Made by a program: the position numbers and the translations under genes. Positions 10,285 to 12,708 of a DNA stretch of 32,918 bases are shown here, piece by piece. The notes beneath the pieces were generated by a model, which was given only the letters and a program-made list of their open reading frames with translations, was not told where the DNA came from and made no database searches. The DNA comes from an uncultured Eubacterium sp. (GTDB lineage: Bacteria > Bacillota > Clostridia > Lachnospirales > Lachnospiraceae), in the NCBI GenBank assembly GCA_949959185.1, contig CATLIX010000038.1:1-32918 (forward strand), in the 5' to 3' direction. How positions within the stretch are numbered: position 1 is the stretch's first letter; the number at the start of each line of letters is the position of its first letter.

Positions 10285-10312
10285 TTGCAATTGCCGGTGG
10301 AAGGTTTAGAAT
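10285..10312 (+). promoter_or_regulatory. Predicted promoter of folded element and DUF5685 operon
   Basis: TTGCAA (10285-10290), 16-bp spacer, TAGAAT (10307-10312). Start of transcription would fall near 10319, three bases before the outer stem of the folded element, which fits a transcript beginning with that stem. The -10 box is one base off consensus and the spacing is slightly short. Confidence 0.45.
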
Positions 10313-10321
10313 ATATTTTAT

Positions 10322-10486
10322 AGTTCAGCCATCAGCGGCATTATGAGCGAATCATGCTGGCATGGACGAGCTCGTAATGGTGCTGATGAGCGGAGCGCCC
10401 CTTAAGCCTCAGACAGGGAGCTGCGTTAGCAGCGGCGTCTGCCTGGCAGGCGGTCTGTGGCCAGTCAGTGGGGCGCGGGCTGAACT
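10322..10486 (+). ncRNA. Candidate structured RNA (or folded repeat element)
   Basis: A dense set of nested stems. Outer stem: 10322-10330 with 10478-10486, 9 bp perfect. Long arm: 10330-10336 with 10382-10388 (7 bp), continued by 10339-10348 with 10370-10379 (10 bp, one G-U), with tip 10353-10357 with 10360-10364. Second domain: 10395-10401 with 10470-10476 (7 bp perfect), enclosing 10410-10414 with 10437-10441 and 10420-10424 with 10429-10433 (GTTA loop). It starts right after a predicted promoter and lies in the leader of the DUF5685 operon. No known riboswitch class was recognised. The outer arms resemble the hairpin at 12633, so a miniature repeat element is the main alternative. An open frame through it (ATG 10362) is not considered coding. 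Confidence 0.45.
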
Positions 10487-10529
10487 GTTACCGAACCTGA
10501 CATTTTCTGAATCTTATGGAAAGGACAGT

Positions 10530-11369
10530 ATGTTTGGATATATTATTGTAAACAAACCGGAAATGAAATTTAAGGAATTTGATTTGTACCAGTCCTATTA
10601 CTGCGGCCTGTGCAGGATTCTTAAAGAACAGTCCGGCAGGCGGGGCCAGCTTACTTTAAGCTACGATATGACCTTTCTGGTGCTGCTGCTTACCAGCCTG
10701 TACGAGCCTGAGACACAGGTAAGCTGCCGGAAATGTGCGGTCCACCCTTTTGAAAAACATCCCGCCAGAGTGAATCAGTTTACCCGGTACGGAGCAGATA
10801 TGAATCTTCTGCTGTCTTATTATAAATGCCTGGATGACTGGGAAGACGAACATAAGGTGAGCAGGAAAATGATGGCCTTTTCCCTGAAAAAGAAGTGCAA
10901 AAGGATTGGGGAAATGTATCCGGAGAAGGCTTCTGTATTTCAGGACAGCCTGGAACAGCTTCGTCGGTGCGAGAAGGAAAACAGCAGGAATCCGGATGAA
11001 GTGTCAGGATATTTCGGCAGGATTATGGAAGAAGTGTTTGTCTGGCGCAAAGATGAATGGGAGGCAGATTTGCGGCGGATGGGTTTTTTTCTGGGAAAAT
11101 TTATTTACCTGATGGACGCTTATGAAGATGTGGAGAAAGACAGAAAGACCGGGAACTATAATCTGTTTTTGCAGGAGTTGGAGACGGAAGGATTTGAACG
11201 GAGGGCGGAAGCCGTTTTAAGTATGATGATGGCGGAATGCTCCAGGGCATTTGAGCGTCTTCCCATTGTAGAGAATACGGAAATTTTGAGAAATATTTTA
11301 TATTCCGGCGTCTGGTGTCGGTACGAATATGTGAAGAAGAACAGGGAGAGGAAGGTAACAGATGTATGA
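10530..11369 (+). CDS. DUF5685 protein, isoprenoid-synthase-like motifs
   Basis: 279 residues, largely helical, with the N-terminus ([18 protein letters not shown]) that I associate with DUF5685. Two acidic motifs stand out: DDWED at residues 102-106, and DAYED at 196-200 with Asp204 following, in [17 protein letters not shown]. They resemble the paired Asp-rich motifs of squalene/phytoene-synthase-type proteins in motif, order and spacing. Two CxxC pairs (Cys25/28, Cys66/69) could bind metal. No activity is established for the family, so the enzyme idea is inference. ATG 10530 follows AAAGGA; a longer frame from 10362 runs through the folded element and is rejected. The stop overlaps the next gene by eight bases. 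Confidence 0.75.
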
Positions 11370-12621: not shown

Positions 12622-12632
12622 GAGAAAGGCAT

Positions 12633-12661
12633 GTGACAGTTCAGCTTGTCTGAACTGTTAC
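12633..12661 (+). repeat. Hairpin sharing arms with the 10.3-kb element
   Basis: Positions 12633-12644 pair with 12650-12661 over 12 bp (one G-U) around a five-base loop. The right arm CTGAACTGTTAC is identical to 10480-10491, and the left arm shares AGTTCAG with the other element. It may be an internally deleted relative, or both may be terminal inverted repeats of one small element. Confidence 0.5.
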
Positions 12662-12665
12662 AAAG

Positions 12666-12708
12666 GCAGGAGAAGATACGTTCGATTCTCTTGCTTTTTT
12701 CTTTTTTT
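12666..12708 (+). terminator. Rho-independent terminator of flavodoxin operon
   Basis: GCAGGAGAA (12666-12674) pairs with TTCTCTTGC (12686-12694), nine pairs with one G-U, followed by a run of 13 T interrupted by one C (12695-12708). The downstream arm and T run also hold the -35 box of the dcm promoter. Confidence 0.85.

Follow-up and report, generated by a model that had tools for sequence, protein, structure and literature searches.

A folded element in the leader of a DUF5685 operon is probably an ISBst12-type miniature transposon

Introduction

Lachnospiraceae are major bacteria of the human gut. The window analysed here, a stretch of 32,918 nucleotides from an uncultured Eubacterium sp. 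of this family, contains an intricate predicted fold followed by a DUF5685 gene (PF18937), a DnaJ-domain gene and a flavodoxin-domain gene. An initial annotation offered two readings of this fold, a structured RNA that controls the operon and a miniature repeat element. Which of the two does the locus hold, and, if the sequence is mobile, what might move it and what might its fold be for?

Results

The segment in question, positions 10322-10486, has a minimum free energy (MFE) of -88.5 kcal/mol, against a mean of -67.1 for shuffled sequences (z -4.75; 0 of 200 shuffles as stable). The initial annotation had described seven or more stems inside a 9-bp outer stem, with 17 pairs in the long arm. 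The outer stem (AGTTCAGCC/GGCTGAACT) is confirmed, the 17 pairs are present (7+10, with 5 apical pairs in addition), several further stems occur, and seven helices appear in the consensus fold of related copies. The fold in this segment thus stands, but its limits are not those of the element: because other copies start with GTAAC and finish with GTTAC outside it, the real unit spans 10317-10491 (175 bp, plus strand), slightly beyond the segment first marked. In this full extent, repeat to repeat, it was aligned with 28 other full-length copies from the genus. An intact copy is bounded by a 14-bp terminal inverted repeat, reading GTAACAGTTCAGCC at its start and GGCTGAACTGTTAC at its finish. 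Comparison with these copies identifies an intact right repeat in the window (10478-10491, GTAACAGTTCAGCC on the minus strand) and a decayed left one (10317-10330, plus strand, TTTATAGTTCAGCC for the consensus GTAACAGTTCAGCC), whose first five bases, GTAAC, are replaced by TTTAT.

The architecture is that of a three-way junction, in which the terminal repeats form the outer stem and enclose two arms, all on the plus strand. Arm A is the long hairpin of 17+5 pairs (10331-10387, MFE fold). Arm B (10395-10476, MFE fold and consensus of copies) is a stem enclosing two small hairpins, GCTGC....GCAGC at 10420-10433 and one of the CCTG..CAGG type at 10436-10452, both placed by the MFE fold and the alignment; the pattern of the former, AGCKGC..GCMGC, was found in 91 of 128 copies. 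A covariance model built from 15 copies with the window copy excluded (R2) recovered that copy from end to end (78.8 bits, E 1.8e-18). As the initial annotation had noted, no riboswitch or known RNA can be recognised. Rfam covariance models gave no match at gathering score in the window or in 20 more sources, and in 7 further sources they gave only two tRNAs, which adjoin elements; a permissive scan of the window returned four weak hits, named as microRNA, sRNA and snoRNA families and well short of their thresholds. A riboswitch or known RNA was therefore rejected.

We looked for compensatory base changes, a check that had been proposed at the outset, in alignments of the repeat copies, and found covariation in two sets. 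The alignment of 29 full-length genus copies (A1; partial copies, among them L012, L014-L025 and L287, were left out) has a consensus of 54 pairs in seven helices, in which 94.0% of cells pair, against 86.8% after shuffling and 28-45% with the partner slid. Double changes occur in 21 of the 54 pairs (119 double-change cells versus 37 shuffled), and in arm A 14 of the 17 pairs of helix 2 have changed on both sides. In a second type of copy, represented in alignment A3 by 15 sequences matched in length and type (one belongs to the window's genome and 14 to other genera), 35 of 44 pairs show double changes, in 129 cells versus 38.

A model of the 29 genus copies (R1) matched 30 of 200 genomes of the family, the window's own included, drawn from 199 genera; most matches ran end to end, and of 20 Butyribacter stretches 18 gave a full-length match. 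Scores of this kind might come from the ends by themselves, so an interior-only model (R3) was built with the ends removed. With E required to be below 1e-3, it recovered every one of the 29 other-genus loci, three in part, these loci having been chosen by the full model R1; for Butyribacter the match was weak, with 2 of 18 loci under that threshold. Conservation between genera extends to unpaired positions and to both small hairpins. At the level of the class, R2 matched 11 of 391 genomes, 9 of them in the family. Two class-level matches outside the family are not claimed: in L321 the fold is not alike, and L323 (1501-1643, from another family of the class) has a similar fold with an ATGAGC..GCGAATG motif and different ends.

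The position of the element in the operon leader, as initially claimed, is well founded. The DUF5685 gene (10530-11369, plus strand; PF18937, E 1.4e-111) has its start placed by the conserved ATGTTTGGATAT of relatives, and a leader scan found a promoter-like site, TTGCAA-16-TAGAAT (9 of 12 matches), at 10285-10312 on the plus strand, just upstream of the element. This site also occurs in element-free leaders: a TTG[CA]AATT box with a -10-like hexamer lies upstream of the start codon in all 25 orthologous leaders, from the 25 of 29 genomes of the genus in which the gene was found. The element therefore sits in the leader. This sense placement between a conserved promoter and the start codon, together with the strong fold, is what one would expect of a cis-acting RNA, akin to a riboswitch or an attenuator, with control of the operon as its evolved function.

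The orthologous leaders themselves, which the initial annotation had advised collecting, largely refute such a leader RNA. Nineteen of the 25 have no insertion of this kind, and the full element and fold are confined to the window species, being present in both of its genomes. The leader of G024, whose gene is 87% identical, holds a deleted remnant; that of G010 carries a different end-like insertion close to this site; and those of G027 and G004 (L218 and L220) exceed the short leaders by over 200 nt, their insert beginning with GATAACGATTCAG, being weakly similar and lying where the window species carries the element. A conserved operon leader was rejected on these grounds. Nor is there a rule of orientation relative to flanking genes: at 99 loci (none from Butyribacter; 2 of 101 were dropped at contig edges) the element was antisense in 35, sense in 27, between divergent genes in 21 and between convergent genes in 16. 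The leader scan found no terminator-like site, the genome holds 24 further blast matches, and the Rfam names of the permissive scan look like chance. The proposal of a structured RNA controlling the operon is thus not supported, and we consider a cis-acting origin of the fold highly improbable. The element adds about 175 nt to the DUF5685 leader, of which any regulatory effect is putative. The element-free leaders L226, L227 and L228 (G007, G026 and G006) have a different hairpin, CCCAAAGGATTAG...ATCCTTTGGGAG, which overlaps the -10 region.

The alternative of a miniature repeat fits what the genomes contain. Counting copies in the window's own genome (3.40 Mb in 114 contigs), as had been suggested, gave 25 blast matches to the 165 bases, itself included; the other 24 are full or partial, 73-88% identical, and some stand in tandem. 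A 12-base core of the ends, allowing at most one mismatch, occurs 146 times in this genome versus 2 for the reversed pattern, and one genome of Butyribacter intestini has 228 end matches versus 6 for the reversed control. Three to four copies stand head to tail, repeating roughly every 160-180 bp, at each of G027:C33:16962-17384, G061:C1:448177-448699 and G072:C3:77376-78020.

Target duplications accompany many of the scattered copies, a combination that the initial annotation had itself named as evidence against a controlling RNA. Among full-length copies, 7 or more of 8 bp are duplicated in 50 of 127, against 0 of 127 in a control shifted 20 bases outward, and the 50 duplicated targets are 81% AT versus 54% in the fetched loci. 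The fraction varies by genome, from 15 of 17 in Butyribacter and 6 of 6 in G111 to 3 of 12 for the main type in the window's genome, where copies are therefore mostly old. The window copy, which has one decayed end, shows no target duplication.

Elements with these ends range from 29 to 255 bp, and the shortest derivatives lack most of the interior. A scan for two ends 44-74 bases apart, in one genome per species, found at least 119 short stretches, nearly all in Lachnospiraceae, in genera presumed to belong there or to unplaced Clostridia, or in bacterial sequences without a taxon label; the exceptions are L173 (Desulfobacteraceae) and L192 (Family XIII). In the former contig (L173:3892-3976) the same end pair surrounds an unrelated palindrome. 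Of the 118 short elements tested, one further element having no flank, 63 have at least 7 of 8 bases identical between the two flanks that adjoin the 14-bp ends. This 8-bp register was the best of 36 tested; overlapping neighbours at the same spacing gave 18-49 and the rest 0-5. Nine elements of 29-73 bp were inspected, and six have 7-8 of 8 duplication matches while three have 3, 5 and 6. The window contains a minimal element of 29 bp at 12633-12661 (GTGACAGTTCAGCTTGTCTGAACTGTTAC), identified by its end pattern, in which the two terminal repeats stand back to back. It lies between the flavodoxin-domain gene and a gene that we take to encode a DNA cytosine methyltransferase-like protein, and its left and right target duplications (AAAGGCAT at 12625-12632 and AAAGGCAG at 12662-12669) match at 7 of 8 positions.

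GTAA ends combined with 8-bp duplications are a signature of IS66 transposons, and we searched for a member of this family with ends like those of the element. A viral contig (L497) carries an intact IS66-family element of 1796 bp (PF03050, 2.5e-39; NF033517, 1.4e-75) with a perfect 8-bp duplication and ends GTAACTATTCAG, also given as GTAACTATTCAGCACCCC and GTAACTATTCAGAACCCC. Its 12 end bases recur without a mismatch at the left end of the copies in L310 and in L313 (12 of 12) and match the window type at 10 of 12; its relative L496 (G152) holds a transposase remnant with a stop codon six bases before CTGAATAGTTAC. For ISDge4, of the ISBst12 group, the available part of the source (PMC12898284) gives ends GTAACTGCTCAGCA and GTGACTACTCAGCA, which agree with this family at 11 of 14 and 9 of 14 positions, and an 8-bp repeat. 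The element family has both the GTAAC..TCAG-type ends and the 8-bp duplication of that group. Because of the ends of L497, their identity with L310 and L313, and the ends and 8-bp repeat of ISDge4, an ISBst12-group transposase is, judging by these sequences, the likely mobiliser.

Among the end pairs listed, none encloses an autonomous element with exact GTAACAGTTCAG ends, and this includes the window species. Spacings were read for G061, G000, G024, G019, G027, G004, G030, G127, G182, G111 and C. asparagiforme G062, and for the ends listed in Butyribacter G066 (100 of 228), Konateibacter G064 (10 of 16) and G134 (1 of 114). At 16 IS66 loci of ten element-bearing genomes, no pair of these ends surrounds the gene; at 2 mismatches in 12, we estimate that a few end-like sites would arise by chance in the loci scanned. 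Placeable IS66 copies in element-bearing genomes end in GTAAGCG or GTAAAC, those of the window's genus in GTAAGCG. An IS66 transposase was not detected in 2 of 6 (G019, G004) and 2 of 10 (G134, G116) element-bearing genomes; these are draft assemblies, and a copy inserted long ago can persist without an active transposase. Viral contigs searched for exact end pairs at two spacings gave none, and one copy (L292) had no plasmid match. We rejected as partners an end pair on Butyribacter contig C5 (1692 bp) and two spans in G127, which enclose ordinary genes, and also L493, an IS66 remnant followed by element-like sequence, whose relatives L483, L499 and L500 seem to end in GTAAAC; L493 may be just a truncated IS66 beside an element remnant and was not counted.

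Copies are unevenly distributed between the replication strands in two genomes. On two large contigs of Butyribacter, with strands assigned by GC skew, the element strand is the lagging strand in 47 of 57 copies (p 7.5e-7). These are 57 of 67 matches, since 8 on C6-C8 were left out of the skew analysis and 2 near the skew switch were dropped; the count becomes 47 of 59 if both of the latter are held against the bias. For contig C5 the strands of the copies were known before its skew was obtained, and the 20 Butyribacter loci inspected were chosen rather than random: C1 supplied 14, and the other 6 are minus-strand exceptions from C5. In G061, a well-assembled genome of the window species, the element strand is lagging at 16 of 20 loci (p 0.012), a count made by hand from 36 matches after merging tandem copies and dropping short, symmetric and overlapping hits and one on C3. 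The window copy is an exception to this bias. Seven of 10 inspected loci in G061 are antisense to both neighbours and none is sense on both sides; the strand bias is therefore confounded with gene direction, and replication and transcription are not separable as its cause.

Discussion

A multicopy sequence with conserved ends, many 8-bp duplications, element-free orthologous sites, a fold that covaries in many genera and a strand bias in two genomes is best explained as a miniature inverted-repeat transposable element (MITE), probably one that is mobilised in trans by an ISBst12-type transposase and of which the window holds an old copy. MITEs are short, non-coding, non-autonomous DNA transposons. 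Here, 14-bp inverted repeats end the copies in many genomes, 8 bp are duplicated around many full-length and short copies, and a unit of 175 bp without a transposase gene occurs as 25 blast matches in one genome and in 30 of 200 genomes of the family. Past movement of the element is presumed, the observation that bears on it being the orthologous sites that lack it. In the DUF5685 leader it lies between the promoter and the ribosome-binding site. We infer that its GTAAC..TTCAG-type ends are most likely recognised by an ISBst12-group (IS66 family) transposase acting in trans, which would place the element in AT-rich targets and duplicate 8 bp there. The interior is not transposase coding sequence; it is predicted to fold on one defined strand into the three-way junction, which may help the element to move or persist, whether the folded molecule is RNA or single-stranded DNA of the lagging strand.

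The role of this fold is where other explanations compete. G.U pairs make up 400 of 8132 pairs (4.9%) on the element strand versus 206 of 7891 (2.6%) on the other, an excess seen in 28 of 29 genomes; in 115 of 128 copies the element strand also has the lower MFE. A second-type motif, ATGAG...CGAAT, present in 58 of 128 copies and 20 of 29 genomes and absent from arm B of the window copy, could be read as tandem G.A pairs that are possible on the element strand alone. These features, and the conservation of the fold and its unpaired motifs over many genera, would suit a mobile functional RNA, in which the transcribed element strand acts through its fold in trans or for the element itself and transposition is its means of spread. 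Isolated mismatches in the window's genus point the same way (20 G.T versus 8 A.C), but the ratio is 35 to 26 in other genera and 4 to 11 in Butyribacter, and over all 128 copies 59 versus 45 is not significant (p 0.20). Furthermore, G.U pairs are few even on the favoured strand, the antisense setting of most inspected G061 loci does not favour transcription of the element strand, an internal promoter is hypothetical, and the shortest derivatives dispense with most of the interior. We therefore judge a mobile RNA unlikely.

It is possible, if somewhat doubtful, that the element is instead an ordinary MITE whose fold has no function, with template-switch (quasi-palindrome) correction keeping its repeats perfect and so producing covariation without selection. 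The stems of the subfamily consensus sequences are almost entirely Watson-Crick (1 G.T and 3 A.C isolated mismatches in 13 sequences), and elements of many lengths from 29 bp upward retain their ends, many with duplications, as such a process would allow. Correction alone, however, should not maintain loops or a three-way branch, and copies from different genera have unpaired positions and both small hairpins in common. Taken together, the data lean toward the fold of one strand mattering, and they are compatible with RNA, single-stranded DNA and template-switch correction alike; selection on the fold is not proved, given the p of 0.20 in the G.T/A.C comparison and the covariation that correction of inverted repeats could also yield. 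As to the means of movement, a different transposase that duplicates 8 bp, or a single-strand mechanism like that of IS200/IS605, would be consistent with the want of an exact autonomous partner among the end pairs listed and the IS66 loci, and single-strand transposons show a comparable lagging-strand bias. IS200/IS605-type movement, as also that of REP/REPIN, is not known to leave a target duplication, whereas 8-bp duplications are clear in copies of the element, and the resemblance of its ends to those of ISBst12-group IS66 elements argues against another transposase; we regard either route as quite improbable.

With an ISBst12-type MITE as the preferred reading, a more speculative extension, which we put forward as doubtful, is that this DDE-type IS66 system evolved miniature partners in which the three-way junction of one strand, with its non-Watson-Crick motifs, was selected through replication-coupled movement, folding while single-stranded on the lagging side. 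If true, replication-coupled folding would explain the roughly 80% lagging-strand bias in two genera, and it would add a fold-dependent, replication-coupled route to a class of transposons known for double-stranded ends. The question raised is why a branched fold of one strand should be conserved in a transposon at all, and why one replication strand should be preferred.

Bacterial MITEs are a known kind of element; what appears to be new is that a putatively ISBst12-type MITE ranges over a whole family, conserves a three-way-junction fold and is biased in its replication strand. In the part of the open-access literature searched, no description was found of these end sequences or of MITEs of Lachnospiraceae, Clostridia or IS66, and the papers returned for the end 12-mers were unrelated by title. 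ISBst12-group IS66 elements (ISDge4, PMC12898284, as far as its text was available, and the relative in L497) share the GTAAC..TCAG-type ends and 8-bp target duplication but encode transposases of 449 and 423 residues, respectively, whereas the element is 175 bp of non-coding DNA; models R2 and R3 gave no match to the L497 element. MITEPsy1 (PMC3189936) is likewise short, with terminal inverted repeats and a target duplication, and is thought to be mobilised in trans, but it has 100 nt, a 4-nt duplication and other ends. The Tn3-derived TIMEs (PMC13367494) are also short, bounded by terminal inverted repeats that differ from those here, and thought to be mobilised in trans; for neither group does the text compared (PMC3189936, PMC13367494) report a branched fold conserved between genera. 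In the passages available, bcr1 of the Bacillus cereus group (PMC6542083, PMC2267715) resembles the element in its length of about 150-170 bp, its dispersal in many copies per genome, its predicted fold and its mobile features, whereas bcr elements are linked there to a TTTAT motif and to one species group, against GTAAC ends, an 8-bp duplication and a family-wide range. ERIC sequences, in the excerpt compared (PMC2267715), are intergenic repeats of about 127 bp with terminal inverted repeats in several species; that of E. coli is described as one long stem-loop, in contrast to a three-way junction with other ends.

The fold is absent from Rfam yet occurs in 30 of 200 genomes spanning 199 genera, and the covariance models become usable for its annotation. 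These data also illustrate the caution needed before such leaders are taken for riboswitches. A separate group of elements with AGAC-type ends and a constant length of 133 bp was also noted in the window species, with three pairs listed in each genome: G061:C1 72654-72786, 2757294-2757426 and 3613027-3613159, and G000:C10 29458-29590, C28 22834-22966 and C29 33392-33524.
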